Source of the DNA: a virus
Virus record (IMG/VR): IMGVR_UViG_3300022868_000102
Location: 1-23,024 of that record
Strand: one strand, 5' to 3'
DNA length: 23,024 bases
Positions within the stretch are counted from its first letter, which is position 1. Each line of letters starts with the position of its first letter. Shown piece after piece: positions 2,962-22,805 of the stretch. A model generated the notes under the pieces. It was not told the origin of the DNA. It was given only the letters and a program-made list of their open reading frames with translations, and searched no databases. A program made the translations under genes and the position numbers.

Positions 2962-3450
2962 TTAAGAATCAACTATACTCCCCAATTGTTTTCCTGCATC
3001 TTTTGATTTATCTAAAAGTATTCTAAACCTAACTGGAATATAAACAATATCATCTTTTTTATAAGTTGTACCACTATACTCAATTGATATAGCTTTATAA
3101 AATGTAACTGTTCTTGTTGTTTTAGAACCCGATGCTTCTCCAGTAACAACTAATGTATGTTCTGGTACTGTTGAATCTCCTCCAAAATGTAAAGTATTAG
3201 CAGCTATTGCTGTATCTATTCCCCAAGCTATTTTTAAATTTTCCAAAGTTGCTTCTGCTAAATTTGTAACTACAAAAAATTTCTCATTTCTTTTTATAGC
3301 CTTTACTGCTGTTGCTTCTGATGAAACACTTTCAACAACTTCTATATCTGCATTCATTTCTAAAGTTACACCATTTTGAGTATACCCAACTGGAGTACTA
3401 TCAACACTTATATTTGCATACCCACTAAGTACGTTTGTTGCACTAAACAT
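2962..3450 (-). CDS. Tail-tube-like protein (paralogue of the major tail protein)
   Basis: This 162-aa protein can be aligned by eye with the likely major tail protein at 14748-15251. Matching blocks are TQNGVTLEMNADIEVVES to STRGGVTITKETEVFE, AEATLENLKIAWGID to AESDLDNIKVLWDVP, and PVRFRILLDKSKDAGKQLGSIVD to PVTFTLYADTDKPAGKQIGYIED. It should share the tail-tube beta-sandwich fold. It sits at the distal end of the tail operon, so it may form a second tube ring, a tail-tip ring or a surface decoration. SD AAGGAGGAAAAG lies before ATG 3450. Its identity as a structural tail protein is fairly safe; its exact place in the virion is unknown. Confidence 0.75.
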   Translation of the reverse strand: MFSATNVLSGYANISVDSTPVGYTQNGVTLEMNADIEVVESVSSEATAVKAIKRNEKFFVVTNLAEATLENLKIAWGIDTAIAANTLHFGGDSTVPEHTLVVTGEASGSKTTRTVTFYKAISIEYSGTTYKKDDIVYIPVRFRILLDKSKDAGKQLGSIVDS

Positions 3451-3522: not shown

Positions 3523-4332
3523 TTAAACCTCGCACAAAACACTAATAACAATATCAGCAGTTGTTGGAGCATAATCACCATCAGTGGTTATTTTTACTCC
3601 AATTCTTTGTCCTGCTGTAAATGTATCTGTTCTTAATACTTGAGTTGCATAATGATATTGAGTATTACTCCCATTTAATATTGCTTGCAATCCTGTTGCC
3701 GTTCCATCAATTGTAACATCTACTGTTAATGTGCCTGCTGTTCTTGCATCATTAGAAGCAATACTTATACCTACTACAGAACCTGGTTTAGCCATAGTTA
3801 CTTCAGTATTACCAACTAAACCTAACACATTTAAAGCTACTGCTGTCTGTGAAGCTGCTACATCTGATTGCATAAAATTATTATTAATTAATTGTCCTTT
3901 TAAATCAATCTCTGAACGAAGTAATACTATACTTGTTGCAGAATTTGCATAGCCAATTGCCACTGCTTGAGGTGTTGGTTTTACTTGAGTTATACTTCCT
4001 GCTACAGTATGAACATAAATTAATCCCCCAATAGTCCAACCAGTACCCACAGTTATTTCATTTCCAATACCAGCATATACATATCCCTCAGCATCTAAAA
4101 TTATTGAAGTGCTTTTAACTATTCCTAAAAAATCTCCTGTATTGTCTACCTTTGAAACTTTTCCTGCTGCTGAAGGAAGTCCAACTGCATCTCCTGCTGC
4201 TAAAGTTTCTCCACCAGTTATTTTTATTGTTCTTCCAGCTTCTACTTTTGTAATTAAATCATTAAATATTGCTACCCATTCAACTACTCCAGTAGGCATT
4301 TCTGGTATCCCATAATTATTCGTAAATGACAT
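3523..4332 (-). CDS. Structural protein with DUF2190-like decoration domain and beta-rich C-terminus
   Basis: This 269-aa protein has two parts. Residues about 32-145 (ITGGETLAAGDAVGLPSAAG, then FLGIVKSTSIILDAEGYVYA and VAIGYANSATSIVLL) resemble the capsid-cement or DUF2190-like beta domain that starts with 'aGevI.aGdaVgl' strands. Residues about 155-269 form a second beta-rich module (VGISIASNDARTAGTLTVDV, then TDTFTAGQRIGVKITTD), as in tail-surface proteins. It lies after the tip gene rather than beside a capsid gene, so it is more likely a tail appendage than head cement. No signal peptide or TM is seen. Confidence 0.6.
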   Translation of the reverse strand: MSFTNNYGIPEMPTGVVEWVAIFNDLITKVEAGRTIKITGGETLAAGDAVGLPSAAGKVSKVDNTGDFLGIVKSTSIILDAEGYVYAGIGNEITVGTGWTIGGLIYVHTVAGSITQVKPTPQAVAIGYANSATSIVLLRSEIDLKGQLINNNFMQSDVAASQTAVALNVLGLVGNTEVTMAKPGSVVGISIASNDARTAGTLTVDVTIDGTATGLQAILNGSNTQYHYATQVLRTDTFTAGQRIGVKITTDGDYAPTTADIVISVLCEV

Positions 4333-4361: not shown

Positions 4362-7300
4362 TTATACTATACTAATTTCTAAAGTAGCTGCACCACTACG
4401 ATTAATCTCACTAACCTTCTCCACAGTAAAAGTAATATTTGTAGGACTTCCATCAGCTGCTTGAGCAGCAGCATCATAAGTCCATGTTATATCAGTTGTG
4501 TTTGTCGTTCTTAATACGACACCTGTGTCTGTATTAGTTATTTTTAAATCAAACCTAACAAAATCTGTGTCTTCTGTTAATTGGTCTGACCTTGTATAAT
4601 CTAATCCTCTATCTTTTCTATTACATGTTTTCCATTTTAAAACTACATCACCAGAAGCTATTTTTGTAATTCCTCCCAAAGCATTAACTTCTAAATTTTT
4701 AGGAGTTACTGGAGCTGAACCTTTTCCTGTAAATAATATTCTCTCAACATCTACATAAGCAATATCTTGAGGTGTACCTCCAAAATTATAAGATACAAAT
4801 TTATAATATACATAATTATCTTTTCTTGCTATATCATAAACAATATTAGTTGGCAATTGTTTATACTTCATTAATGATATTACATCTCCAACTGAAGCAC
4901 TGTGAGTTAAATTAGGTACATCATAACAGTCCCAAATTATACCTTCTAATTTCCATTGTCCTGTAGCTACTAATGTAGCAACCCCAAATCTAAAATACTC
5001 ACCCGATGTTGAATCATAACAAGCATTATAATTTAAATCTTGTAATAAAGCAAATACATCATCTTTACTATTTAAAGAAGTATCTGAATCAGTTACTGTT
5101 AATGTAATACTATCGTTTGTTATACTATCTATAACCCCCATTAATCCTGAACCTGTTCCTGTATATTTTTTAGTATATGTAGCATTATCATAAGAATCAT
5201 AAATTGTAGCCCCCATCCAGCTAGTTGTACCTGAGTCAGCAAAATTAGAAATTATATAATTATTATCTAAAGCTATTAAAGCAGGTAGTTCTGAAAGAAC
5301 TGGATATCTAACATTATGTGGGTCATCTAATCTATCTGGACTTACATAATAATCATCTGAAGGAGCTGATTTTGAATCCATTATATATCCTATTTCTTCT
5401 ACAGCTTCTATATTTATTGTACCCTCTTTTACTTCTGATGTTGATAACACTCTTAAAGGTTTCTCTACCATCCCTAATTGAGAATCTGTTAATGTAAATA
5501 CTGCACCGGGAATTAATAAAGTAGCTTTTTTAGGTCCTATTGTAAAAGTATAATGCATTGGCATTGCTAAACTTCTTCTAAGAATTGTATAAGCTAATTT
5601 CATTGCTCTAGCCCCTGTAGTAAATCCAGTCATTGATACTGAAAATTCTTGTATTCCATGTTCTGCTTGGCTTACTTCATCTTCAGCAACTACTATTCCT
5701 GAAGTATATTTATTTGCTCTTTTAGTGTATTTTACTTTTATTCTATTTCTTACTTCTCTAAAGGATTCTCTTGTCATCTCTAATGGTGAATCACTTTTTA
5801 CAACATCTGTACTTACATTTATATTAGTAACAGAGACTTCAGTTTCAACTTGCTTATAAGATAATTTTCCACCACTATAAGTTATATAACCATTATGATA
5901 AGAACAAAGATGTTCGAGCAAATCTAAAGTACTCATTTCAGAATCTAATAATATTGAAATTTTAATATCGTTTGTTGTGCAAAATGCAACGGCATCTGTA
6001 AAAGAACCTAAATCATCTTCATCTATTCCCATTCCATATAAATCATTTGTTAATATTGTTCTAGCTATTTCTGGTGGAGTTATATCAATTGTTGATGGAG
6101 GCACATAAGTATAGGTATGTCTAAACATATAATATGGGTAACCAGGATACCCTCCAGATATAAAAATTCTTCCTAAATTATCTACACATATCCTATTTAT
6201 GCCATATATATCAGTTAAATCACAACTAAAAGAATCTTCTAAAACTCCTGTTAAACTATATTTATAAACAGTGGGCGGAGTAGAAGTTCCAGCATATATA
6301 CTTCCATTATAAATATGAATACCAGTTAAATTAGTAACTTCCCAACTTCTTATCTCTCCTCCTGTTAAACCAAACACAGCAATTTCCTTGTCAATTGGTG
6401 AATCTGGATTTCTAGTAATATAAACTTCATCATTATAAACATCTATATTTGTTGTCCACCTACCAGTTATAAAATATCTTACAACATTACCCTCTAAATC
6501 AAAAACATTAACCTGACTATTAACACTATCCCAAGCATTTGTTGTATATAATTCATCTTTATAAGCTTTAATTGACCTTCGAATTTGTTGAGTTATAGAT
6601 TTTGTAGCTTGTAAATTCCCGTATAAATCATAACTTGTAATACGGCTCTTATATAAACAATAAACTTTACCTTCATAAACAGATAAATCTACATACCCAA
6701 CATCTGTTGCCCATTTTCTTCTAAAAGTACCATCTAATGAAAAAACTTGAATTCTAAGATTACCTGGGTCTGTCACATAAAGTTCATTTTCATAAATATC
6801 AATACCTGTAGAACCATCAATTTGCCCATCCCCTGAACCAGTCGAACCAAAGGATGCTGTTTTCAGCCAGTCATAATAAGCATCACTATCTACAGTTGCT
6901 TCAAATGTAAAGTTAGGTAAATAAGTTGATTGTCCTAAATCAAAATTTTCAAAAACTACATAACATAAATTTCTGTAAGCTGGTGCCCTAGTAACAAAAC
7001 TTGAAATATGAGCATTAGCTGTTTGTGTTGTTGTTCCTTTATAAGCAGTAATTCCTAAATCTGACCATTGCATTATTGGTAATTCATCTTCACCTTTATA
7101 TATTTTAAATACTTCTGCTTCTCCCATACATACCCCAAAAGCAAAAGATATTGAGTATGTATAATGGCTAAATACTGATTCAGTAGTAGAACCTCCGCCT
7201 CCTCCACCTTTTCCACCTTCTTGAACTTCTTGTTCTGTATAATGTTCATGAACTTGAAAATTATCATACCAAATTAAATTTCCCGCTACTTTTCTTCTTC

Positions 7301-7466
7301 CAAGAATTACTGGTATCTTAATACCCACTTGAGAACTCTGTATTTGTAAATCACCAGGAGACCTAGAAGAATCTTCTGTTGAACCAGATTTATTTCTCGG
7401 TCTATAAAATAAAGTGAATAGTAATGCAACTGCTTTTACTGCAGTCCATACTGCTGGCATTCCCAT
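4362..7466 (-). CDS. J-like tail tip / host-specificity protein with inserted six-bladed beta-propeller
   Basis: This 1034-aa protein is the tail-tip attachment protein, expected to cap the tail and carry host recognition. The N-terminus (QSSQVGIKIPVILGRRKVAG, 44-63) and a Gly-rich loop (about 83-92) are typical of J/TipJ and GTA tip proteins. Residues about 205-455 hold six repeats of the form IDIYENELYVTD, SIKAYKDELYTTN, NIDVYNDEVYITR and GIHIYNGSIYAGT, an NHL-type propeller. The hub then resumes with PPEIARTILTNDLYGMGIDE, and the C-terminal about 120 residues look FN3-like. The propeller interrupts the hub and could be the receptor-binding or sugar-binding part. Its ATG overlaps the stop of the upstream peptidase gene. 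Confidence 0.88.
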   Translation of the reverse strand: MGMPAVWTAVKAVALLFTLFYRPRNKSGSTEDSSRSPGDLQIQSSQVGIKIPVILGRRKVAGNLIWYDNFQVHEHYTEQEVQEGGKGGGGGGSTTESVFSHYTYSISFAFGVCMGEAEVFKIYKGEDELPIMQWSDLGITAYKGTTTQTANAHISSFVTRAPAYRNLCYVVFENFDLGQSTYLPNFTFEATVDSDAYYDWLKTASFGSTGSGDGQIDGSTGIDIYENELYVTDPGNLRIQVFSLDGTFRRKWATDVGYVDLSVYEGKVYCLYKSRITSYDLYGNLQATKSITQQIRRSIKAYKDELYTTNAWDSVNSQVNVFDLEGNVVRYFITGRWTTNIDVYNDEVYITRNPDSPIDKEIAVFGLTGGEIRSWEVTNLTGIHIYNGSIYAGTSTPPTVYKYSLTGVLEDSFSCDLTDIYGINRICVDNLGRIFISGGYPGYPYYMFRHTYTYVPPSTIDITPPEIARTILTNDLYGMGIDEDDLGSFTDAVAFCTTNDIKISILLDSEMSTLDLLEHLCSYHNGYITYSGGKLSYKQVETEVSVTNINVSTDVVKSDSPLEMTRESFREVRNRIKVKYTKRANKYTSGIVVAEDEVSQAEHGIQEFSVSMTGFTTGARAMKLAYTILRRSLAMPMHYTFTIGPKKATLLIPGAVFTLTDSQLGMVEKPLRVLSTSEVKEGTINIEAVEEIGYIMDSKSAPSDDYYVSPDRLDDPHNVRYPVLSELPALIALDNNYIISNFADSGTTSWMGATIYDSYDNATYTKKYTGTGSGLMGVIDSITNDSITLTVTDSDTSLNSKDDVFALLQDLNYNACYDSTSGEYFRFGVATLVATGQWKLEGIIWDCYDVPNLTHSASVGDVISLMKYKQLPTNIVYDIARKDNYVYYKFVSYNFGGTPQDIAYVDVERILFTGKGSAPVTPKNLEVNALGGITKIASGDVVLKWKTCNRKDRGLDYTRSDQLTEDTDFVRFDLKITNTDTGVVLRTTNTTDITWTYDAAAQAADGSPTNITFTVEKVSEINRSGAATLEISIV

Positions 7467-7912
7467 TATTTATTTCCTTCCCATCTAATTGCTTTACTAA
7501 AATGTTTTTTCATTTCTTCATTTTCCTCTAAATTAAATTCTACTACTCCATATTGAATATGTGAATGAATTGCTTTATTGTCTCCTAAATAAAAAGCTGC
7601 GTGGCAATTACTTCTACCAAATCTATATAAAAATATATCTCCTACTTTTCTATCTTCTAATTTAACATCAAAACAATATTTTCCTAATTCATCTATCATT
7701 GTGTGTCTAGCTTTATGTAAAGCCCAATCTCTAGGATAAGCTTTTATTTTATAATCTTTATTTAACCAACACATCTCTTTACTTACTTCAGCTATAAAAT
7801 TAATGCAATCAGTTCTCACTCCCTTTAATCCTACACCATGCATCCATTTTGTTGGTGGGTTTAACCAAGACCGACACTCTTTTCTAAATTTTTCTTCCTG
7901 TATTTTATTCAT
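7466..7912 (-). CDS. Tail-associated NlpC/P60-type peptidase
   Basis: This 148-aa protein has the NlpC/P60 layout. The catalytic Cys is in RTDCINF (about residue 36), the His in NCHAAFYLG (about 109), and IHSHIQYGVVEF follows. Tail-linked enzymes of this type (lambda K, GTA peptidase) cut peptidoglycan peptides during DNA entry. The order BR0599-like protein, peptidase, J-like tip is the standard one for such tails, broken here only by an HNH gene. The JAB domain of lambda K is absent. Its SD (AGGAATA) lies within the last codons of that HNH gene (TAATG overlap). Confidence 0.88.
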   Translation of the reverse strand: MNKIQEEKFRKECRSWLNPPTKWMHGVGLKGVRTDCINFIAEVSKEMCWLNKDYKIKAYPRDWALHKARHTMIDELGKYCFDVKLEDRKVGDIFLYRFGRSNCHAAFYLGDNKAIHSHIQYGVVEFNLEENEEMKKHFSKAIRWEGNK

Positions 7913-8559
7913 TATATTCCTACATTACTTTGCCTAATATAAGCTTCTAATTTTAAATGGCACCTCTTACATAAAGTTTCACCATTAGATATATCCCAAA
8001 AAGGTTTGTATTTAATTGCTAATCTTATTAAAGTTTCTTTGTCATCTATCGGGCTAAATTGGTCATATTCTTTTAAAAAGTTTTCAAGTATTTTGCTTAA
8101 GGGCTTTTTATGGTGTGCTTCTAACTTCCTACCCATCTTTTTACACTTTTGGCATGTATAGTTATCTCTTTCAAATACTAATGCTCTCCATTGTAAATAT
8201 TCTTCAACTTGTCTCAAACAACAAACTAATGGATAAATTCCACCCTTCCACCTACCATTGCTTGCACCTAAATGACTTCTTTGCCCAGACGCACTCCATT
8301 TTGCTTTAGTTTCTTCAGAATGATGTTTACCATAAAATGGATTCTTTTTACCAACATATCTCCCTGTTAGCGTTTTACTTATTTTTTCCTTAGTTTCTTT
8401 AAATCTTCTTTTACCCATTTTTGCCTTACTCATTTTTAATTTAGATTCTTCTGTATGGGGTCTACCTAAAAAATTTTCGGGATACAACAAAAGTCGTAAC
8501 TGTGCAGCTTTAAACATTCTTTCTTTTGTTTCTTTTGTATGATGAGTACCTTTTTTCAT
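7912..8559 (-). CDS. HNH endonuclease with NUMOD3 repeats
   Basis: In this 215-aa protein the first half is NUMOD3-like: repeated HTEESKLKMSKAKMGKRR, KETKEKISKTLTG and HSEETKAKWSASG, which in homing endonucleases contact DNA. The C-terminal part is the nuclease (YTCQKCKKMGRKLEAHHKKP, then NGETLCKRCHLKLEAY) with both Cys pairs, the His pair and the final His. SD AAGGAG precedes ATG 8559. It separates the BR0599-like gene and the tail peptidase gene, which are normally neighbours, so it is an insertion that keeps the operon readable. Family certain, mobility inferred. Confidence 0.92.
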   Translation of the reverse strand: MKKGTHHTKETKERMFKAAQLRLLLYPENFLGRPHTEESKLKMSKAKMGKRRFKETKEKISKTLTGRYVGKKNPFYGKHHSEETKAKWSASGQRSHLGASNGRWKGGIYPLVCCLRQVEEYLQWRALVFERDNYTCQKCKKMGRKLEAHHKKPLSKILENFLKEYDQFSPIDDKETLIRLAIKYKPFWDISNGETLCKRCHLKLEAYIRQSNVGI

Positions 8560-8567
8560 TTTACTCC

Positions 8568-9422
8568 TTAAATTAAAACAGATGGTGCAGGGACGTATTC
8601 AAATCCTAAAAAATTAATGTAGTTGTTAAACTTATCATTACAAGTTGAACCACTCTTTGAACAACCTGGATAAGCTATATATGTATCTCCTACTTCTATT
8701 CCTAAATTAAAAGTTTCATATAGTGTAAGTGTACTTCCAGAATGGGTTCTAATATTTTTACTTATTCCATTTGAAGCACCAGATGTCATTACTATTTCTC
8801 CTAATGTAAAATAATTTGCTGCATAAGCACTAAGTGTTGATGAAATCAAAGTAGCCCCAGTTGAACCAGCTTCTAACTCACCAGTGACTGCATAATTTGC
8901 TTTTACTAAACCACAATAAGTACTAAATAATTTATGATTGCATTGTTCTTGATACATTATTTTTGGTACACTTGTTTTTAGTAAATCCAATGATGATGTT
9001 ATTTGCAATGTAACTGTTTTTCTATTATATTGAATTCCTTTAGTTACATCCCCTCTAAATATTTCTCTTTGGTCTGAAGTGCTTGTTGGGTCTATTTGTT
9101 TAATTATTACTCCTGCTTTATCAAACCAACCATAATCAATTGCTTGAATAATACTCTTACCTGATATTGTAAAAGCGTGAATGCTAAATTCAATTTTTAA
9201 AGTATCTATTCTCAAATCAGTTTGAAATTTTATATTGCTTCTTTCAATAGGAACAACAGTATAAGTATTTCCATCGACCAAACCTAATTCAGAGCTTTGA
9301 GCTACCCCATTGTAACTAGTTCTTCCACCATAATTAGTTAAATATAATTTCTTATTATTTGATAAAGTAATTGTATATACTTCTGTTATTCTAAAATTAG
9401 AACCTGTTAAGCTAAGTGACAT
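8568..9422 (-). CDS. BR0599 / DUF2163-like minor tail protein
   Basis: In this 284-aa protein the N-terminal half has beta blocks (VVPIERSNIKFQTDLRIDTL, EIFRGDVTKGIQYNRKTVTL). The C-terminal half has the BR0599 signature: conserved cysteines in EQCNHKLFSTYCGL, then YPGCSKSGSTCNDKFNNYIN, and FEYVPAP at the end. This family occurs just before the tail peptidase and tip gene in GTA-like tails and probably forms part of the distal tail hub. The four Cys may bind a metal or an iron-sulfur cluster, as reported for the GTA hub region; that is inference here. SD GGGAG lies in the end of the gene at 9423-9959. Confidence 0.85.
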   Translation of the reverse strand: MSLSLTGSNFRITEVYTITLSNNKKLYLTNYGGRTSYNGVAQSSELGLVDGNTYTVVPIERSNIKFQTDLRIDTLKIEFSIHAFTISGKSIIQAIDYGWFDKAGVIIKQIDPTSTSDQREIFRGDVTKGIQYNRKTVTLQITSSLDLLKTSVPKIMYQEQCNHKLFSTYCGLVKANYAVTGELEAGSTGATLISSTLSAYAANYFTLGEIVMTSGASNGISKNIRTHSGSTLTLYETFNLGIEVGDTYIAYPGCSKSGSTCNDKFNNYINFLGFEYVPAPSVLI

Positions 9423-9959
9423 TTAAATCTCCCAATCTATATCTGTTTCTATTAAAACAACTTCATTTAAATTGTATAATTGATAATAAAAATAATTAAT
9501 ATTTAAAACATCTTCAAAGAATCTTACATAATGTCTATCACCAGTAACTGGGTCTATCCATAAAAGTGTCTTTCTTCTTCCTTGCACAAAATTAAATGAA
9601 ATCAATATCTCATCTTTTTCTGATTCTGTTAATGAAGCAAACTTTAAAATTATTTTATATTGTGGTAATGCAACCCCTAATCTTCTTTGTTCTGTCCCAC
9701 CAACATATTCAATTACATCCCCACCATAAAATTTTGGTGTCTTTAAAACTGGATAAATTAATTTCCCTACATCTGGAAATACAGAAATAACAGCTAATTT
9801 AGAATCACTTTCAGCCGTATCAGTTAATGTAGGCAACTTAGCTAAAATAGAAAGAAGTTCTGAAGAAGTTATTGTATCTGATATTAATTTTGTAAATACC
9901 CCCAAAATCTTTTCGCTACCTACACCAGTATCTGATAAATTTACATAATTATCTGCCAT
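9423..9959 (-). CDS. Distal tail protein, DUF2460-like, second tandem copy
   Basis: In this 178-aa protein, residues about 75-178 (YKIILKFASLTESEKDEILI, then YVRFFEDVLNINYFYYQLYN and LNEVVLIETD) match the neighbouring protein at 9959-10312 block by block. They are tandem paralogues of a distal-tail family (DUF2460-like) found between tape measure and hub. This copy has an extra N-terminal stretch of about 70 residues (VFTKLISDTITSSELLSILA) not seen in the shorter one. Stop and start codons overlap with the neighbour. Confidence 0.75.
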   Translation of the reverse strand: MADNYVNLSDTGVGSEKILGVFTKLISDTITSSELLSILAKLPTLTDTAESDSKLAVISVFPDVGKLIYPVLKTPKFYGGDVIEYVGGTEQRRLGVALPQYKIILKFASLTESEKDEILISFNFVQGRRKTLLWIDPVTGDRHYVRFFEDVLNINYFYYQLYNLNEVVLIETDIDWEI

Positions 9960-10312
9960 TATTCATCAACTGCCTCTATTAAGGTTATATTATTTATATT
10001 ATATAAGTCATAAGTTAAATATTCTATATCTAATTCTGATTCTAAAAATCTAACTGTATGAGAGCCAGCATCTTCTGGGTTAACAAAAGTAAAAGATTCA
10101 TAATCACCATTTCTAGCTATAAAAAAATCTCTTATAGTATCCTTTTCAGCTTCTGTTAAAACTAAATACCTAAAAGTAAATTTATATCTAGCAGTAGAAT
10201 GATTTGCTCTTCTTATTTCATTCATTCCTTTAAACTTCACAATTGCAGTATCCCATATGGGTGTCTTAGTTAAAGGAAAAGGTATTTTTGGAGAAGTTGG
10301 ATAAGTAGCCAT
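9959..10312 (-). CDS. Distal tail protein, DUF2460-like, first tandem copy
   Basis: This 117-aa protein follows the tape measure gene with overlapping stop/start codons. Its core FRYLVLTEAEKDTIRDFFIA...HTVRFLESELDIEYLTYDLYNINNITLIEA is the same fold pattern as its neighbour. In siphophages and GTA-like particles the protein encoded here is the distal tail protein that joins tube and hub. Either copy may form the ring, or the two may form stacked or mixed rings. Confidence 0.75.
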   Translation of the reverse strand: MATYPTSPKIPFPLTKTPIWDTAIVKFKGMNEIRRANHSTARYKFTFRYLVLTEAEKDTIRDFFIARNGDYESFTFVNPEDAGSHTVRFLESELDIEYLTYDLYNINNITLIEAVDE

Positions 10313-13300
10313 TACAATCTCCTTAAAGAACTATTTTCATCGTATGAATCAGAAATTACATCCTCTAGACTTTGTCTATTATTACTTAAAAAATCTTTAA
10401 ATGATTTTGCGTCCATTGCATTAATATAATAATGTCTATGTATTTCTTGTTTAGGTTGTGGTGCTGTTCCTCTATTTAAATTATCTAATTCTGATTTGCC
10501 TCCAAGAGAATCCATACCTAATCTTGATAACACTCCTTCACCTGTTTGAGCAATTATTGGAACTTCATCTGATGTTAATGCTACACCCTGATGAGCTTTT
10601 ATTAATCCCCCCATATGTTTCTTTATTGGTCCACCCTGATGAAACAATCCTCCCAGTAAACCACCTGTTCCACCAACCCCTAATAATTTCAAAGCCAACA
10701 TTTGAGCTAACATATCTGCTATAATTTTTTTAACTGATGAAGCGAATGCATCAAAATAATCTCTAGCGGTATTTAAATTTCCTTCAAAAGCGTCTAAGAA
10801 TAAAGTTTTAAATGAATCTGCTATTGTGTTATAAGTTCTAGTTGCTGCTTCTTCTTGATAAGCAAGAAGCTCGTTAGTGTTTTCCTTTTGTTGTTCCCTT
10901 ATTTCTTCAAGTTTAATAGCGTGGTATTCAGCTGCTTGAGTCATAGTCATCCAACCATCTTTAACTAAATCAAATACTGAAATCATTTCTTCTTCTAAAC
11001 TCTTATAAGCAGTGCCAATAGGGTCTATTGATTCTAAAATTGTATCTGTTAACTCCTTTTGAACTTCCATTTCTTCTGCAATAATATCTGCTCGCTCTTG
11101 AGCTAATTTTTTTATTTCAGTATTTAAATCTTTTTGTAGCTTTATCCTCATTAGGTTATTATACTTCCTTATAATAACTTCATCTACAAAAGCAGCTTCC
11201 ATTGCTTCAATTTCTTTTTCAAGCTGTATATAACCACTATACTCACCACCAGTTTCTAAGTCTCTTATTTTTTCTAGTGTGTCTTTAGTTAACTCTAATT
11301 TTGTTTTCTCAGCAGCTTCTTTTGCTTTAATTTCCTTTTTATTTACTTCATCTAACTCTATCTGTAATTGTGCCCTTAATTTTTTCCCTTTTTCTGTAAA
11401 TTCACCAACTGCTTCTATCATAACAGCATATTTTTCTTTAATAGCTTTTACTTTTCCTTCAATAGAATTTTTATCTATTTCTGCTATTGCTTTGTCTGCC
11501 TCTTTTAGTGCTTTTATTAATCTAGCAACATTTTTTAAAGAAGCAGCTTCAGGGGATTTTTCAAAAGCTTCTGCTGCTTGTTTTTTTTCTTCAGCTACTC
11601 TAGCCTTAACATCAGCCATTGTATTCTCTATAACACTTATCCACTCTTTAAGTTCAGTAATAGCTTGACCAATTTCAAACTTATGAAAAGCATCCGCTGA
11701 CCCATTCCCAATAGCATCCATCTCTTCTTGAAAACCAGTAATCTTTTCTTGAAATCCAACAATAGTTTCACCAGCTGTTTTAAGCCAAAGGTCATCTTCT
11801 TCTACTTTCGTAAGTACAATAGGTTCTTTAAGTGCATCATGCATTTCCCTAAGTGCTTTACCATAAGCAACAACAGTATCAGTTCCCTTATCTAATTCTT
11901 CTCTAAAAATTTTATGTGCTTCTGAATTCTCCCCAAAAGAATCTGTTAATTCCCCAGTAAAATAATCTACTTCTTTAAAAGTTTTTTCTAAATCAGCAGA
12001 TTTATTTTTTAATTTTAAAATATGTTGCCACAAAGCATTTATTTTTTTATCTAAATCAAAAATATTAGCTGCAAATCTTCCTATTGCCCAACCTATCGTC
12101 AAACCTAATATTACTACAGAAAGATAAGACATTGTTTTTGCTAATACTCCACCAACAACATTCATTAGCCATAACTTTTGAGTTAAGGCTACAACTGCTA
12201 CGTTAATTAATCCAATTCCAGCTACTAAATGAGGTATCACCATTATTAATCCACCTAAACCAAGTGATAATACCCCAAGCACTCCTACAAGCTTTACAAT
12301 TATTGGAAATAATATGGTATGTGCCTCAGCAAAATCATTTATACTTTTAGTTACTTCTATTACTTTTGCAACTAAAGATTTCATTACGGGCAATAATTGC
12401 TTTCCTATTGTTTGAGCAGAAACAATAAATGTTTGTTTCATTCTTCCCATTTGATAATTTAATGTCTTCTGTGCTTTTAAAAATTTCTCATGACTCAAAC
12501 CCAATCTATTAGTTATAACTCTTAAATCTTCTGATGCTTTACTTGCTTGTCCAGCTGTAATTGCCCAACCTAATAAGCCTCTAATGTTTGGAGATATTGC
12601 TGACAATTGTTCAATAGAAGCTTTAGATAATTTCTGTAAAGTATCTTCAAAATTCCCAGCTTCAATTGCACTTACCCCCCACTCTATTCCTAATTCTTTA
12701 GCTGCCGCAGTAGCATCATCGTTAACTTTTAAGACAGAACGTAAAAGCCCCTTTAAAGCTGTTTGAGCTTTATGAGCATCTAAACCACCTCTAGTTAACA
12801 TTGCAAATGCTGCACCATAATCTTCAATTGACATTCTTGCTTTTTCAGCCATTGCTGCTGTTTGACCAATAGTAGTAGCAACGTCTTCCATTGTAATTCT
12901 ACCTCTTTCAACAACAGCGGCTAACCAATCTGCTGCATCAGCAGTATCTCTTAATTGCCCACCAAACGTAGACATTAAAGTAATTATAGCAGAAGTAGTT
13001 GTGGACACTTGAGTAAAACCTCCTGCTGCTGATTCAGAAGCTACAGCCATTAATCCCATTGCCGTAGAAGCTTCTATCTGAGCAGATAGTACATCATAAG
13101 TACCTTGTGCAAGCTCTTTTGTAGATTGCCCATATTCCATTGCCATTTTTTTAATTTCTTTTGAAAAGGAAGGTAGATAGTGTTCAGTAGACTCATTAAG
13201 CATAGTATTAACTTTTGCCATACTTGTTTCGAAATCTGCAGCAGCTTTAACTGTTAAAGCTAAACCAGCAACTATGATTGCTCCACCAATCATAAACTGC

Positions 13301-13452
13301 TTACCAACTTTTTTAAATACAGCACTGCTAGCTATAATAGCTTTATTTAGCCCACCAATTTCACCTTTTGCAAGATGCATCTTAGTGACGAAAGCTTTCA
13401 TGTCAACGTTAAGGAAAACGGTCAAACAACCAAGATTATCAGCACCAATCAT
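10312..13452 (-). CDS. Tail tape measure protein
   Basis: This 1046-aa protein sets tail length and passes with DNA into the host. The N-terminus has the TP901-type block (AADFETSMAKVNTMLNESTE, then STKELAQGTYDVLSAQIEAS). Residues about 380-470 are strongly hydrophobic, with several TM-like stretches. The middle (about 540-890) is a long charged coiled coil (KEADKAIAEIDKNSIEGKVK). The C-terminus is Gly-rich (LLGVGGTGGLLGGLFHQGG). It is the longest gene of the window, as expected, and overlaps the chaperone extension by one base (TAATG). No peptidase domain is seen inside it. Confidence 0.95.
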   Translation of the reverse strand: MIGADNLGCLTVFLNVDMKAFVTKMHLAKGEIGGLNKAIIASSAVFKKVGKQFMIGGAIIVAGLALTVKAAADFETSMAKVNTMLNESTEHYLPSFSKEIKKMAMEYGQSTKELAQGTYDVLSAQIEASTAMGLMAVASESAAGGFTQVSTTTSAIITLMSTFGGQLRDTADAADWLAAVVERGRITMEDVATTIGQTAAMAEKARMSIEDYGAAFAMLTRGGLDAHKAQTALKGLLRSVLKVNDDATAAAKELGIEWGVSAIEAGNFEDTLQKLSKASIEQLSAISPNIRGLLGWAITAGQASKASEDLRVITNRLGLSHEKFLKAQKTLNYQMGRMKQTFIVSAQTIGKQLLPVMKSLVAKVIEVTKSINDFAEAHTILFPIIVKLVGVLGVLSLGLGGLIMVIPHLVAGIGLINVAVVALTQKLWLMNVVGGVLAKTMSYLSVVILGLTIGWAIGRFAANIFDLDKKINALWQHILKLKNKSADLEKTFKEVDYFTGELTDSFGENSEAHKIFREELDKGTDTVVAYGKALREMHDALKEPIVLTKVEEDDLWLKTAGETIVGFQEKITGFQEEMDAIGNGSADAFHKFEIGQAITELKEWISVIENTMADVKARVAEEKKQAAEAFEKSPEAASLKNVARLIKALKEADKAIAEIDKNSIEGKVKAIKEKYAVMIEAVGEFTEKGKKLRAQLQIELDEVNKKEIKAKEAAEKTKLELTKDTLEKIRDLETGGEYSGYIQLEKEIEAMEAAFVDEVIIRKYNNLMRIKLQKDLNTEIKKLAQERADIIAEEMEVQKELTDTILESIDPIGTAYKSLEEEMISVFDLVKDGWMTMTQAAEYHAIKLEEIREQQKENTNELLAYQEEAATRTYNTIADSFKTLFLDAFEGNLNTARDYFDAFASSVKKIIADMLAQMLALKLLGVGGTGGLLGGLFHQGGPIKKHMGGLIKAHQGVALTSDEVPIIAQTGEGVLSRLGMDSLGGKSELDNLNRGTAPQPKQEIHRHYYINAMDAKSFKDFLSNNRQSLEDVISDSYDENSSLRRL

Positions 13453-14141: not shown

Positions 14142-14696
14142 TTAATTAAAATCTCTTACTGCTTGATACCCTAAGTTAATTTTTTTAAATCTTCGTTGAT
14201 TATTATGTATAATCGCATGGCAGCTTCTACACAATGTAATTAAGTTATCTTCTTTACAGTTCATTTTAACATAATCTTTATGATGAACATCAAGTAAGCC
14301 TAATTGCTTACAAAGAAAACATCTTTTCCCATCTATTAATCTAATTTTTTCTCTTAACTCATCATTCCAAATACTTGGGTATTCCCTCTTTTTCAAACTT
14401 CCATCCCCACCACTTGAAATGCTTTGTTTTTTTCTTACTTTTATAGCTTTTTCTTTACCATATATTTCTCTATAAGATTTTCCACTCCGAACCACACTCA
14501 TTTTTTCTTTTGTCGCTTGAGTAACTTTTCTTCCTTTCATCCAAGTGTTAACTCCCATCATTCCCTTACTAATATTATCTCTTCTTGTTTGGCTATTATA
14601 AAGAGGATTAGCACTTCTTACTTTACATGCACAAGAAAGACACATTCCTGTTTTTCCTTCCCCCTTTATATTTTTACTACATTTCATACACTTCAC
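14142..14696 (-). CDS. HNH endonuclease with zinc ribbon and NUMOD3-like repeats (GTG start)
   Basis: This 184-aa protein starts at GTG 14696, chosen because GGAG sits 6 nt upstream; the ATG three codons later would be too far. Residues 3-25 form a zinc ribbon (CMKCSKNIKG...CLSCACK). About 38-95 are NUMOD3-like (TRRDNISKGMMG, QATKEKMSVVRSGKSYREIY). The HNH part is CFLCKQLGLLDVHHKDYVKMNC and NLITLCRSCHAIIHNN, with all three key residues. It lies between the major tail protein and chaperone genes, which are nearly always adjacent in siphophages. Confidence 0.9.
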   Translation of the reverse strand: MKCMKCSKNIKGEGKTGMCLSCACKVRSANPLYNSQTRRDNISKGMMGVNTWMKGRKVTQATKEKMSVVRSGKSYREIYGKEKAIKVRKKQSISSGGDGSLKKREYPSIWNDELREKIRLIDGKRCFLCKQLGLLDVHHKDYVKMNCKEDNLITLCRSCHAIIHNNQRRFKKINLGYQAVRDFN

Positions 14697-14747: not shown

Positions 14748-15251
14748 TTATGCGGTTACGTCTTCAATATAGCCAATCTGTTTGCCAGCTGGTTTATCAG
14801 TATCAGCATATAGAGTAAATGTAACAGGAACAACTGTTATATCATCTTTAGCTAATACAGAATCTCCTACTTCTGAAATAAAAGCTCTATAGCAATAAAA
14901 CTTTCTATCTAATCCTTCAGGTGACTTACCATAAAACTCTAGCACCTTATAAGATATTGTAGCAGTAGTACCCCATGATAATGTTCTAGTACTTCCATCA
15001 ACTTCAACAGAATTAGGAACATCCCAAAGAACCTTAATATTATCTAAATCAGATTCAGCTATTTCAGTTGAAACCTTATAAGTTTCTCTAATCTTGCTCA
15101 TTCCTAGAGGAGATAATTCCTGGTCAACCATCTTTTCAAAAACCTCAGTTTCCTTAGTGATAGTTACACCACCTCTTGTTGAGCCCATTGATACTGTATC
15201 AATTTTAAAATCACCTATACCTACGATTACGTTTGCAGCATTCACAGACAT
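14748..15251 (-). CDS. Major tail (tube) protein
   Basis: This protein of about 167 aa starts at the second ATG (MSVNAANVIVGIGDFKIDTV). The near-perfect SD AAGGAGGTG lies 9 nt before it, while the first ATG at 15257 would leave only 3 nt. The order terminator, this gene, chaperone, tape measure marks it as the tail tube subunit, and the strong SD suits a protein made in many copies. Features are a beta-rich body, GGVTITKETEVFE, and the C-terminal VTFTLYADTDKPAGKQIGYI. A diverged relative is encoded at 2962-3450. Confidence 0.85.
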   Translation of the reverse strand: MSVNAANVIVGIGDFKIDTVSMGSTRGGVTITKETEVFEKMVDQELSPLGMSKIRETYKVSTEIAESDLDNIKVLWDVPNSVEVDGSTRTLSWGTTATISYKVLEFYGKSPEGLDRKFYCYRAFISEVGDSVLAKDDITVVPVTFTLYADTDKPAGKQIGYIEDVTA

Positions 15252-15293
15252 TTGCATGCACCTCCTTCTTGTTTATTTATATTTTTAAATTTT

Positions 15294-15728
15294 CTAACTT
15301 AAATCTACTATTTTTAAAGTATAATAAGAAACTCCTACATACATCATTAATTCGTTATCATAAAATATAGGAAGGTTTCTTTCCCACTCCAAATTTAAAC
15401 TCCTCATACTTCCCACTTCCTCTAATTTTTGATTGTGTAAAACTTTTATTGCTCTTTCTCTTATATCACTTACATTTATATCATCTATTCTATCAAAGGC
15501 TTGAACTTGCATATCGTAATTTCTTATTTTATTTGATACTTCACTATTTAAACCTAAGTCTCCTTGGCTTCCTGTTAATTTCCCAAAGCAAAGCATCGTA
15601 TCAAAATCATATTTTATTAAACTTTCAAATCGCTTTATATTTTTATTGCTCACTGTATAACCAAGTAAAGCTTTTAAATCCTCATCGGCTATCAATTTTG
15701 TATTTATCGCCTTTAATATATCTTTCAT
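15294..15728 (-). CDS. Tail terminator / tail completion protein
   Basis: ATG 15728 (MKDILKAINTKLIADEDLKA) is chosen over an earlier in-frame start at 15773 because AAGGA lies about 8 nt upstream and the earlier start sits within the conserved end of the HNH gene. The protein of about 144 aa has 'a..i...L.aD..l..llg' followed by YDMQVQAFDRIDDINVSDIR and NLEWERNLPIFYDNELMMYV, typical of small tail terminator or completion proteins. Its place between the gp10-like and tube genes agrees. Its first 47 bp overlap the HNH gene in another frame. Confidence 0.72.
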   Translation of the reverse strand: MKDILKAINTKLIADEDLKALLGYTVSNKNIKRFESLIKYDFDTMLCFGKLTGSQGDLGLNSEVSNKIRNYDMQVQAFDRIDDINVSDIRERAIKVLHNQKLEEVGSMRSLNLEWERNLPIFYDNELMMYVGVSYYTLKIVDLS

Positions 15729-16551
15729 TAAAATATTCCTTCCAATAATTTCTATTAAAATTAGTTCTACCATGGCACTGATTGCATAAAGATGTTAAAT
15801 TCCCCTCTTTAATATTTTTTTTATTATAATCTTTGTGATGAATATTTAAGTCTGCTCCGTATAATATTAAATGTTCTTCTTCTGTTATTCCACATATTTG
15901 ACATTGATACTTGTCTCTTTTACGAATCTTTTCTTTTAATTCATTATCAAACTCAAAGGGATAGGGTTCTTTTGAAATTCCACCTTGCCAATTTGAGTGT
16001 TCCACCCCTGCTGGTCTTTTCATATAGGGTAATATATTTTCTTCCCAATATAATTTATAGCATTTCTTACACCTTGTTGCACCAACATGAATCTCTTCAC
16101 CACAATCGACACAATAATTTAATTTTGAAGCTCTCCCATCTATATAACATGGATGATTTTCTTTTATAGAATATAACTCCTTTAAAAACAAAGAATGCCC
16201 TATTCTCTGGCATTTAACAGAACAATATTTCTTATTTGAATTTTTTAATTTATATATAACTTTACCACAAATAGCACAATTAGCTTTTATTTTTTTATTC
16301 AATGGGTGATTTATACCAGAATTCCAATAACATTTTCTGGAACAAAACTTTCTATTTTCATATTTAGTTTGAAACTCATTTCCACAAGTTAAGCATTTTT
16401 TAGTTACTAATTTTCTAAAAGCATTTCTTTTTGCTTTGCATACAAAACATTGACAGTCTGAGTTATGATTCAAAGGTTTGCCTTCTAATTTTTTTCTTAT
16501 TTTATCTTTTATTTCTTTAGACCTTGGATATTTTCTCTTATCTATTTTCAT
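15682..16551 (-). CDS. HNH endonuclease with multiple zinc ribbons
   Basis: At 289 aa this is the longest HNH protein here. The N-terminal 165 residues hold Cys clusters: CQCFVCKAKR (about 34), CLTCGNEF...FCSRKC (about 53-74), CAICGKVI...YCSVKC and YCVDCGEE...CKKC. The C-terminal nuclease is YQCQICGITEEEHLILYG, IHHKDYNKKN and CNQCHGRTNFNRNYW. The start overlaps the gp10-like gene by ATGA. The last 47 bp overlap the tail terminator gene and contain its SD. It carries the second copy of a 46-bp exact repeat with the HNH gene at 98-775. Confidence 0.93.
   Translation of the reverse strand: MKIDKRKYPRSKEIKDKIRKKLEGKPLNHNSDCQCFVCKAKRNAFRKLVTKKCLTCGNEFQTKYENRKFCSRKCYWNSGINHPLNKKIKANCAICGKVIYKLKNSNKKYCSVKCQRIGHSLFLKELYSIKENHPCYIDGRASKLNYCVDCGEEIHVGATRCKKCYKLYWEENILPYMKRPAGVEHSNWQGGISKEPYPFEFDNELKEKIRKRDKYQCQICGITEEEHLILYGADLNIHHKDYNKKNIKEGNLTSLCNQCHGRTNFNRNYWKEYFNERYIKGDKYKIDSR
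15741..15786. repeat. 46-bp exact repeat shared by two HNH genes (copy 2)
   Basis: Identical over 46 bases to 145-190, within the end of the HNH nuclease domain. Outside this stretch the two genes resemble each other mainly at the protein level, which suggests local gene conversion. Confidence 0.9.
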
Positions 16552-16929: not shown

Positions 16930-17577
16930 TTATCTTATCCAATAATAATTGTTTGTGGTGAACATCGTCTTTATCATATGTATCATAAACTCTTTGAAGT
17001 GCTTTTCCCAATACTTCCTATTAAAATTAACTCTACTATTACACGGTCTACATGTTGTAATTAAGTTATCTTCCTTACAATTCTTTTTATCATAATCTAT
17101 ATGATGAACGGTTAATATTTGTCCATATACTATTAAGTGTTCTTCTTCGGTCATCCCACATAATTGACAAGTATAATTATCTCTTTTACGAATATTTTCT
17201 TTTAATTCATTATCAAATTTTCCTGGATATACATTATTTTCATATGGAATACCAGTTCCCCCGTGGGTCAAACTTATTTTTCTTTTAGATTCTATAGTAT
17301 GAAATGTTCCTTTTTTTATTCCTCTTTGTGAATCACCAATTTTTATATTCTGTTCTTTTGAATTAACTTTTCTATGGTTTAAAGACAACATCTTTTTATG
17401 TTCTTCTGAAAGATTTTTTCCCTTCCAATATCCGATGTGCCCTTTATTAGCAACACTTATTTTTTTCTTAGTTTTTTCTGAGCGTTTTTTATTTTTCCAA
17501 TATCCTTCATTTCCTCTATTTGCTTCACTAAGTTTTCTTTTATGTTCTTCAGTTCTCTCATATATCCCAGTTGGCAT
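16930..17577 (-). CDS. HNH endonuclease with NUMOD3 repeats (HNN variant)
   Basis: In this 215-aa protein, three NUMOD3-like repeats (RTEEHKRKLSEANRG, RSEKTKKKISVANKG, LSEEHKKMLSLNHRK) fill about residues 8-70. They are followed by YTCQLCGMTEEEHLIVYG, VHHIDYDKKNCKEDNLITTC and RPCNSRVNFNRKYW. The last position is Asn (CNSRVN) where others have His. SD GGAG precedes ATG 17577. It parts the head-closure and gp10-like genes, which are usually adjacent. The C-terminal tail (FMIHMIKTMFTTNNYYWIR) differs from the other copies and ends one base before the next start. Confidence 0.92.
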   Translation of the reverse strand: MPTGIYERTEEHKRKLSEANRGNEGYWKNKKRSEKTKKKISVANKGHIGYWKGKNLSEEHKKMLSLNHRKVNSKEQNIKIGDSQRGIKKGTFHTIESKRKISLTHGGTGIPYENNVYPGKFDNELKENIRKRDNYTCQLCGMTEEEHLIVYGQILTVHHIDYDKKNCKEDNLITTCRPCNSRVNFNRKYWEKHFKEFMIHMIKTMFTTNNYYWIR

Positions 17578-19468: not shown

Positions 19469-19957
19469 TTAAAGTATAAAATTTAATATTTCACTATTTG
19501 CTATATCAGCAGGACTTACAACCCCCGCACTTTCTTTATCAACTATCTGTAATCCACCTGCTTTAAATGCTTCATATACCAATTCAGAACAAAAGTAATC
19601 TCTGTCTTTTTGCCACTTATTAGCCAACTTTTTCAATCTGAATAATTTCATTACCCCTAAAAATATTACACCTGCATAATCATATTTTTCATTGAGCTTT
19701 GAAACAAGGAAAGATATTGTTGCATTTAAATTATATCTATTGTTTTTCTTTATTCTAAATATATTATAATTAGTCAACTTTCTAATATCTTGTGCTCTAA
19801 CTATACCCTGGGCTTCAATTATTAAATTCATTTGAGCATTCACACATATAGCAACGTGGGAATATTTTGATTTTGTTCCCCATTGAATAATCTTTGACAT
19901 TAAGCCACTTCTATAAAACAATAGAATATCACCGCTGTTTATAGTTTTATTTTTCAT
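19469..19957 (-). CDS. Permuted NlpC/P60 (YiiX/YebB-like) cysteine hydrolase
   Basis: This 162-aa enzyme has the circularly permuted papain-like order: His in KYSHVAICVN (about 33), an acidic residue in NLIIEAQG (about 48), and the nucleophile Cys in YFCSELVYEAFKAGG. It opens GDILLFYRSGLMSKIIQWGT, a hallmark of the YiiX group. These enzymes cut amide bonds in peptidoglycan peptides or lipids. In this phage it may be the endolysin or a host-envelope modifier; no signal peptide or wall-binding domain is seen. It follows motif C and a 17-codon ORF that overlaps it by TAATG. Confidence 0.82.
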   Translation of the reverse strand: MKNKTINSGDILLFYRSGLMSKIIQWGTKSKYSHVAICVNAQMNLIIEAQGIVRAQDIRKLTNYNIFRIKKNNRYNLNATISFLVSKLNEKYDYAGVIFLGVMKLFRLKKLANKWQKDRDYFCSELVYEAFKAGGLQIVDKESAGVVSPADIANSEILNFIL

Positions 19958-22022: not shown

Positions 22023-22259
22023 CTATTTTTTATCTTCAAATTTTTCTTCAACTACTCTTAATCTTCGTGTGGCTAATGCTAAATTATCTTTTTTCAACTC
22101 CGCCACCTGCCTTAATAAATCGGCTACTATGGGTGTGCAGTCGTCTATGGCTATGTTGTAGCCATTTGGATAAGTAGCAGATGATATCTTTCTATCGTTC
22201 ATCAATTTAATTATCTTCTCTGGCAACAACTTCTCCGCTTCCTTTGTGAAATTTTTCAT
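22023..22259 (-). CDS. Hypothetical protein (78 aa) with C-terminal coiled coil
   Basis: It starts MKNFTKEAEKLLPEKIIKLM, has a middle with YPNGYNIAIDDCTPIVADLL, and ends as a charged helix (RQVAELKKDNLALATRRLRV). Such a short globular part with a coiled-coil tail suggests an oligomer. Its ATG overlaps the HNH stop (ATGA), so it is translated with that gene. Function unknown. Confidence 0.65.
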   Translation of the reverse strand: MKNFTKEAEKLLPEKIIKLMNDRKISSATYPNGYNIAIDDCTPIVADLLRQVAELKKDNLALATRRLRVVEEKFEDKK

Positions 22260-22717
22260 TTTATTTCTCCACTCCTTTTTTTTAGTTTTCTGCCGTCAAA
22301 AATAATACCTTTAGAATAATTGCCATTTTTCCTATGAAACCACATATGAAAACCCTCATTTTTAAACAATATAAAATTCTCAATCCTATTGTCATCTTTA
22401 ATTTCATTTATGTGATGAACTCTCTCTTTAGATTTAAGATACCGACTAAGATGTTTTTCCACAACTAATCTATGCTCATAAACATATCCAGAGCCATATT
22501 TCATAGCAAATGGGTGGGTGGGGCTATATACTGCAATATAACCATTCATCTTAATTCTTCCACCTTTCCACGATGGTCTGGTTTTCTTAAAATTTTCTCT
22601 CATTAGTTGCAATGTAGCTTCAGAGCAATAACCACTTTTCCCTTTATTCCAAGTTTTGTGTCCTTTTTGAAAAGCTTTACCAGACAAAGAACCATCTTTT
22701 TTATATCCACTCGGCAT
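22256..22717 (-). CDS. HNH endonuclease, HNH_3-type
   Basis: ATG 22717 (MPSGYKKDGSLSGKAFQKGH) is chosen because GGAGGAGATT lies directly upstream; the longer frame to 22777 has no such site. In this protein of about 153 aa, an N-terminal NUMOD-like stretch (HKTWNKGKSGYCSEATLQLM) is followed by HRLVVEKHLSRYLKSKERVH, then the core VHHINEIKDDNRIENFILFKN with its His-His-Asn pattern, and a final MWFHRKNG His. It belongs to a different HNH branch from the CxxC-type copies in the tail region. It sits behind a promoter and hairpin and couples to the next gene by ATGA. Confidence 0.88.
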   Translation of the reverse strand: MPSGYKKDGSLSGKAFQKGHKTWNKGKSGYCSEATLQLMRENFKKTRPSWKGGRIKMNGYIAVYSPTHPFAMKYGSGYVYEHRLVVEKHLSRYLKSKERVHHINEIKDDNRIENFILFKNEGFHMWFHRKNGNYSKGIIFDGRKLKKRSGEIK

Positions 22718-22805
22718 AATCTCCTCCAATAAAAAGGCAACTTTCAGCGGTCTGATAGAAAGAGGTAAATCTTTCAACGCTTACGGTTGCCTTTGTTTTA
22801 AACAT
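22701..22805 (-). CDS. Leader ORF (34 aa) overlapping the HNH start
   Basis: The frame MFKTKATVSVERFTSFYQTA continues to a stop 17 bp inside the HNH gene. SD AGGGGA lies 6-7 nt before ATG 22805, and it is the first frame after the promoter. Almost all of the hairpin at 22733-22794 is within it, so translation would open that hairpin. It may be a leader peptide, or the remaining start of a gene cut by the HNH insertion. Confidence 0.45.
   Translation of the reverse strand: MFKTKATVSVERFTSFYQTAESCLFIGGDYAEWI
22733..22794 (-). terminator. Long hairpin with T-tract, possible attenuator
   Basis: On the minus strand AAAGGCAAC pairs with GTTGCCTTT (9 bp), AGCG with CGCT, and GAAAG with CTTTC around an 8-nt loop. 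TTTTTATT follows at the 3' foot. It lies between the promoter and the HNH gene, inside the leader ORF. It could end transcription unless ribosomes on the leader open it. Confidence 0.45.

Follow-up and report, generated by a model that had tools for sequence, protein, structure and literature searches.

GTA-like siphovirus tail-tip proteins with TIM-barrel peripheral domains are already known, as are decorated tail-tip proteins. The megatron of RcGTA, Rcc01698 (PDB 6tba and 6teh), is divided into an iris (residues 1-46) and adhesin-like (47-229), peripheral (230-744), central (745-984) and fibre-binding parts (985-1304) (PMC7296036). In the megatron of roseophage R4C (8gtc) the peripheral region, residues 212-903, consists of a mannanase-like domain and a carbohydrate-binding domain (PMC10276861), and for the peripheral domains of both proteins sugar-binding or mannanase-like roles have been proposed (PMC7296036, PMC10276861). 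The 'evolved' Dit and Tal proteins of siphophages likewise combine a conserved tail-tip scaffold with an inserted module (PMC7291167), and a propeller at the tail tip has been described for the receptor-binding protein of phi11, which is proposed to bind a host sugar through a GlcNAc site (PMC4901313).

Here we analyse a stretch of viral DNA of 23,024 nucleotides (IMG/VR record IMGVR_UViG_3300022868_000102, in the following the window) whose tail-tip protein carries a predicted propeller between its adhesin-like and central domains, that is, in the peripheral-domain slot of RcGTA and R4C. The succession of putative iris, adhesin-like domain, slot, central (Phage-tail_3) domain and C-terminal region is that of Rcc01698, and as in RcGTA the gene comes after those for the DUF2460, hub and NlpC/P60 proteins; the slot of RcGTA, however, is filled by a TIM-barrel-like peripheral domain of about 515 amino acids. 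With the R4C megatron the protein shares core and slot, whereas the slot of R4C holds the mannanase-like peripheral and carbohydrate-binding domains. The modules of the 'evolved' Dit and Tal proteins are carbohydrate-binding ones from phages of Gram-positive hosts, in contrast to a propeller in an Rcc01698-like protein, and the propeller of phi11 is five-bladed and belongs to a separate trimeric receptor-binding protein, whereas that of the window is an insert in the tip scaffold. None of the literature that we searched, which lacks most subscription journals, describes a propeller at this position.

The tail-tip protein and its gene neighbourhood

The features of the region are collected in Table 1. 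The genes follow each other in the GTA-type order of tape measure, two DUF2460 proteins, Gp84/BR0599 hub, HNH, NlpC/P60 and then the tail-tip protein. Of the DUF2460 genes, both of which are also present in the closest relative found (L249, described below), the one at 9959-10312 matches Pfam with 4.4e-15 and the one at 9423-9959 with 1.8e-4, under the cut-off. The phages matched in a search with the tape measure protein infect many hosts, and the identities were low (about 25-27%), so that we assign no host.

Table 1. Features of the tail-tip protein, its predicted propeller and the neighbouring genes
Feature	Position in window	Strand	Basis
269-aa protein beside the tail-tip gene; judged by position only, a candidate for a small fibre or tail protein	3523..4332	-	
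Rcc01698/megatron-like tail-tip protein, 1034 aa	4362..7466	-	Uninterrupted ORF; Pfam, PHROG and PDB matches
C-terminal region, residues 691-1034, at the place of the fibre-binding domain	4365..5396	-	62% identical in L249
Central domain (Phage-tail_3), residues 461-690	5397..6086	-	Pfam and relatives' profile
Six-bladed NHL-like beta-propeller, residues 200-456	6099..6869	-	Motif count, PDB search, AlphaFold2, fold comparison
Blade 6, residues 423-458, degenerate	6093..6200	-	Model strands 423-450
Blade 5, residues 381-422	6201..6326	-	Model strands 380-414
Blade 4, residues 339-380; 351-380 poorly modelled	6327..6452	-	
Blade 3, residues 296-338	6453..6581	-	Model strands 296-335
Blade 2, residues 259-295	6582..6692	-	Model strands 260-290
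Blade 1, residues 220-258, most NHL-like	6693..6809	-	Model strands 222-253
Adhesin-like domain, residues 40-190	6897..7349	-	6tba match, relatives' profile, model
N-terminal helix region, residues 1-39, at the place of the iris/penetration domain	7350..7466	-	Model; position as in PMC7296036
NlpC/P60 peptidase, Rcc01697-like	7466..7912	-	Pfam 1.4e-6
Baseplate hub protein, Rcc01696-like (phiJL001 Gp84 N domain and BR0599)	8568..9422	-	Pfam 2.9e-19, 1.4e-20
Two adjoining DUF2460 (distal-tail-type) proteins, without propeller	9423..10312	-	Pfam
Tape measure protein	10312..13452	-	PhageMin_Tail 6e-19; PHROG 4e-38

The protein of 1034 amino acids is matched by a tail protein family in PHROG (E 8e-63). 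Its residues 34-191 match the RcGTA megatron Rcc01698 (6tba, E 2.1e-12), the R4C megatron (8gtc) is found with E 4.3e-5, and residues 509-665 match Pfam Phage-tail_3 (PF13550; E 7.1e-15, 55.7 bits with a cut-off of 23). It had been predicted that the insert is flanked by hub sequence of the J/TipJ type. Both flanks indeed belong to a tail-tip protein, but not to lambda J itself, and the protein is better called Rcc01698 ("megatron")-like. The peripheral TIM barrel GTA_TIM (PF13547) gave no Pfam match in the protein, and the propeller stands at its position; we therefore use the label megatron-like and do not call it an RcGTA-type megatron. For Rcc01698_C (PF23666) the window protein stays without a match at E 0.01; the domain reaches 26.9 of the 27 bits needed in L255, a relative of the window's clade, and 48.6 bits in L048.

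The adhesin-like domain aligns to residues 55-202 of 6tba, is placed at residues 40-189 by a profile built from the relatives, and has a pLDDT of 83-94 in the AlphaFold2 blocks from residue 101 to 190. An N-terminal helix (residues 4-20) is predicted at low confidence (block pLDDT 61-67). In the central domain the model is poor as far as about residue 640 (block pLDDT about 26-46 for residues 451-630), and we have therefore not taken the orientation of the propeller on the tip from the model. The 269-aa protein found no family in the Pfam and PHROG searches.

A six-bladed propeller in the peripheral slot

The original prediction had placed six repeats and a six-bladed propeller at residues 205-455 of the tail-tip protein. 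These residues correspond to window positions 6102-6854 of the minus strand within an intact reading frame, as had been given, and both repeats and propeller are borne out by the motif count, the PDB match, the AlphaFold2 model and the comparison of the model with known folds by VIA-align. We place the boundaries slightly wider, at about residues 200-456.

The motif 'I.vY..e.lY' occurs five times in the insert and not once in the remaining 773 residues of the protein; five occurrences were reached in none of 2000 shuffles (shuffle mean 0.11). Searched alone against the PDB, the insert finds NHL propellers, with TRIM71 at E 2.4e-18 in four stretches and Thin at E 2.6e-18. With Pfam NHL (PF01436) it scores 18.6 bits, below the gathering score of 20, and is therefore filed as NHL-like and not as NHL.

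The AlphaFold2 model of the whole protein was built from 57 aligned rows and has a modest overall confidence (mean pLDDT 67.9, pTM 0.39). Structure prediction of the protein alone had been named as the check that might return a fold lacking a propeller; it returned the propeller, with repeated strand sets across residues 222-450. Blocks at residues 221-350 and 381-440 have a pLDDT of 76-93; the confidence drops to 46-63 at 351-380 and to 51 at 441-450, and it is also low for residues 191-220. Every one of the 15 best VIA-align matches of the model is an NHL domain (Z 24.1-25.0, rmsd 2.3-3.1 Å over 219-234 residues); these matches span model residues from about 200 to 453 and are followed at lower Z by six-bladed lactonases, SMP-30 and PAL. 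The alignment used for AlphaFold2 held rows of other NHL proteins, and the model is thus not independent of the NHL idea; the sequence search against the PDB is independent of it.

Taken from sequence and model, the predicted fold of the insert is a six-bladed NHL-type propeller. Blades 1-5 are clear by sequence; the closing strand of blade 6 is probably supplied by residues from about 200 to 207, and the VIA alignments start at about residue 200. The NHL propellers of TRIM71, Brat, Mei-P26 and PknD share the six-bladed fold (Z 21.6-25) but are only 13-20% identical to that of the window, and they are cellular domains with RNA-binding, protein-binding or sensor roles, whereas the window propeller belongs to a tail protein. 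Direct relatives of the propeller were found neither in the phage collection nor, with back-translated peptides, in the viral contigs.

A relative with a diverged propeller

Using a degenerate DNA pattern for NHL we found a contig of 7883 bases (IMGVR_UViG_3300033144_004385, here L249), the closest relative found, that is syntenic with the window at gene identities of 44-73%, the 269-aa gene being the most similar (73%). It is without the HNH gene between the hub and NlpC/P60 genes. Gene order and flanking domains agree in the two tail-tip proteins (global identity 0.64 for the adhesin-like domain, 0.56 for the central domain and 0.62 for the C-terminal region), and the insert of L249, in the same slot, passes Pfam NHL with 36.2 bits. 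The two propellers, however, cannot be aligned above chance: their identity is 0.24, with a shuffle baseline of mean 0.21 and maximum 0.26. Conservation of the same propeller on different hosts had been named as a refutation of the original prediction; here even the closest relative found does not conserve it. A blade-by-blade comparison of the two propellers did not reveal orthology, the identity order of the blades ranking 155 of 720 permutations, and hence the two do not show a shared order of blades. Judging by the sequences, the entry into the first blade appears to come about two strands later in L249 than in the window protein. The difference is due either to very rapid change of the propeller or to its replacement by another one of the same type.

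Occupants of the slot among relatives

Relatives were collected by several scans of viral contigs, one scan of genome contigs and from annotated phage records. The slot was measured as the gap between the profiles of the two flanking domains, which is approximate where a profile matches only in part. Flanks and inserts were treated apart, since a general alignment of insert-bearing and insert-free relatives over their whole length scattered the central domain over the insert and was rejected.

The slot is empty (20 amino acids or fewer) in 123 of the 176 distinct relatives having both flanking domains. The other slots measure 21-60 amino acids in two relatives, 61-200 in four, 201-300 in two including L249, 301-450 in 42, 451-650 in two and more than 650 in one; these counts depend on the search seeds and are not natural frequencies. 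Since most relatives do without any insert, the insert is dispensable to the machine as such.

The inserts of 301-450 amino acids fall into several groups without detectable relation, namely one large family (35 of 41), the pair L153/L187 and the singletons L048, L156, L172 and L173. For the large family a confident model (mean pLDDT 86.7) gives a seven-bladed, YncE-like propeller that matches YncE and WD40 domains with Z of about 23-25. The insert of L048 has repeated 'SPDGITWT' motifs of the Asp-box-like type and a match to DUF6242 below threshold, and that of L255 matches WD40 repeat proteins (E 1e-18). In L005 the slot holds GTA_TIM (E 1.4e-154), and by eye L086 has a similar insert. When profiles were compared, the NHL set gave no significant match to the YncE-like family (probability 2.7%) and a weak one to the insert of L255 (19%).

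Several further cases stand apart. The inserts of L256/L002 (926 amino acids), L156, L172, L173 and L153/L187 look like propellers by eye only and were not counted as such. L081 (ORF from 6935, plus strand) was rejected as bearer of a slot insert; its large extra stretch lies inside the central domain. In a tail protein of L242 (ORF from 4493, plus strand) a central domain is accompanied by NHL-like repeats near the C-terminal end, outside the slot. At L003:857-2608 (plus strand) we note an Acinetobacter phage whose tail-tip protein has an empty slot and which encodes a BNR-repeat (sialidase-like) protein three genes upstream.

A tree calculated by a quick method from the flanking domains alone (135 rows) groups the window with L249, L255 and L256 in a single well supported set, each member of which carries a large insert. 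Changes between empty and occupied slot number 11 on the tree, nine of them forced by well supported branches; on this tree of flanking domains loss and the gain by the phage that had been predicted are indistinguishable.

Possible role of the propeller

A conserved scaffold with a swappable, fast-diverging module at its tip is best read as a device for receptor or glycan binding. It also fits a host-surface-recognition module that the occupants of the slot differ while the neighbouring fibre-candidate gene and the C-terminal region remain alike. We consider it fairly probable that the NHL-like propeller in the peripheral slot binds a glycan or protein of the host cell surface and that this binding positions the tip or triggers it. 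On the pattern of the three-fold baseplates of RcGTA and R4C, the tail tip would be surrounded by three outward-facing copies. The flanking domains would build the tip and open for the DNA. The propeller of phi11 and the decorated Dit and Tal proteins are precedents for such a role. Elsewhere an NHL propeller and a DUF2460 (distal-tail) match occur in one protein (L240:391-1614, minus strand; NHL Pfam 2.4e-24, C-terminal DUF2460 1.9e-5, under cut-off), and a protein of L248 combines an NHL propeller with a chaperone domain of the S74 endosialidase type, which is typical of tailspikes. We infer a link of the propeller to host range, and it is a candidate host-range determinant for phages known from metagenomes alone. 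The high divergence of the propeller could, however, also reflect relaxed constraint or a replacement by another propeller unrelated to the host. In other insert families the insert identity is 0.32 on average and up to 0.57 at a flank identity of 0.50-0.65, and this closer tracking of the flanks can be counted against a role in recognition.

Propellers with a structural role are known from the crAss muzzle and the T7-type nozzle, which likewise speaks against recognition, and in RcGTA the fibre-binding domain touches the peripheral domain (PMC7296036). The propeller might accordingly be a platform that docks or spaces the C-terminal fibre-binding region or the fibres without contact to the host. 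A docking surface should, however, co-vary with its partners, whereas in L249 the fibre-side candidates have stayed similar to those of the window (62% for the C-terminus, 73% for the next gene) and the propeller has not; moreover most relatives have an empty slot. We regard such a platform as unlikely. An enzymatic role of the propeller at the tip, in glycan degradation or another reaction, like that proposed for the TIM barrel in the slot, seems rather improbable to us. GTA_TIM does fill the same slot in L005 and matches the insert of L086 by eye, and the fold comparison also returned the lactonases, SMP-30 and PAL. Yet their Z lies below that of the NHL domains, the best matches being protein- and RNA-binding NHL domains and designed Pizza propellers; the insert matches no enzyme family by sequence in Pfam, and, as the blades of L249 and the window cannot be aligned with each other one by one, a conserved catalytic set could not be traced.

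The many empty slots, and a propeller divergence at the level of shuffled sequences, would also be expected of a tolerated insertion of little function that is kept as harmless. But about 250 residues of intact fold without stops have been retained, every member of the window clade has kept a large insert, and propellers of unrelated sequence in several lineages argue for a use; a mere passenger is very unlikely.

Recognition of the host surface by the propeller is the reading that we prefer. A slot left empty by most relatives, and filled by several unrelated propellers in others, suggests that an otherwise conserved injection machine bears a recognition site that can be replaced. Several unrelated propellers in one slot are less expected than a decorated tail tip. 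The slot may be a socket that has repeatedly recruited unrelated propellers (NHL-like six-bladed, YncE-like seven-bladed, Asp-box-like and WD40-like) and TIM barrels, by which host recognition could be changed without rebuilding the tip; we put this forward tentatively. For annotation a testable rule follows, namely to inspect the region between the adhesin-like and central domains.

Other genes in the window

Genes of the HNH type are interspersed through the 23-kb tail region. Pfam finds five HNH-type endonuclease genes (1406-1801, 7912-8559, 15682-16551, 16930-17577 and 22256-22777), one of them just under the cut-off and two with NUMOD3, and the ORFs at 98-775 and 14142-14696 have a C-terminal sequence similar to theirs with no Pfam match. 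Two genes at opposite ends of the tail module, 2962-3450 and 14748-15257, both belong to phrog_2175 (Ig-domain/major-tail-like). A weak MptE-like match is found at 772-1401 (1.1e-5, below cut-off) and a permuted papain-like amidase, Peptidase_C92, at 19469-19957 (3e-9). The gene at 18229-19182 matches glycosyltransferase family 9 (heptosyltransferase, 1.2e-8) and possibly modifies the host surface.
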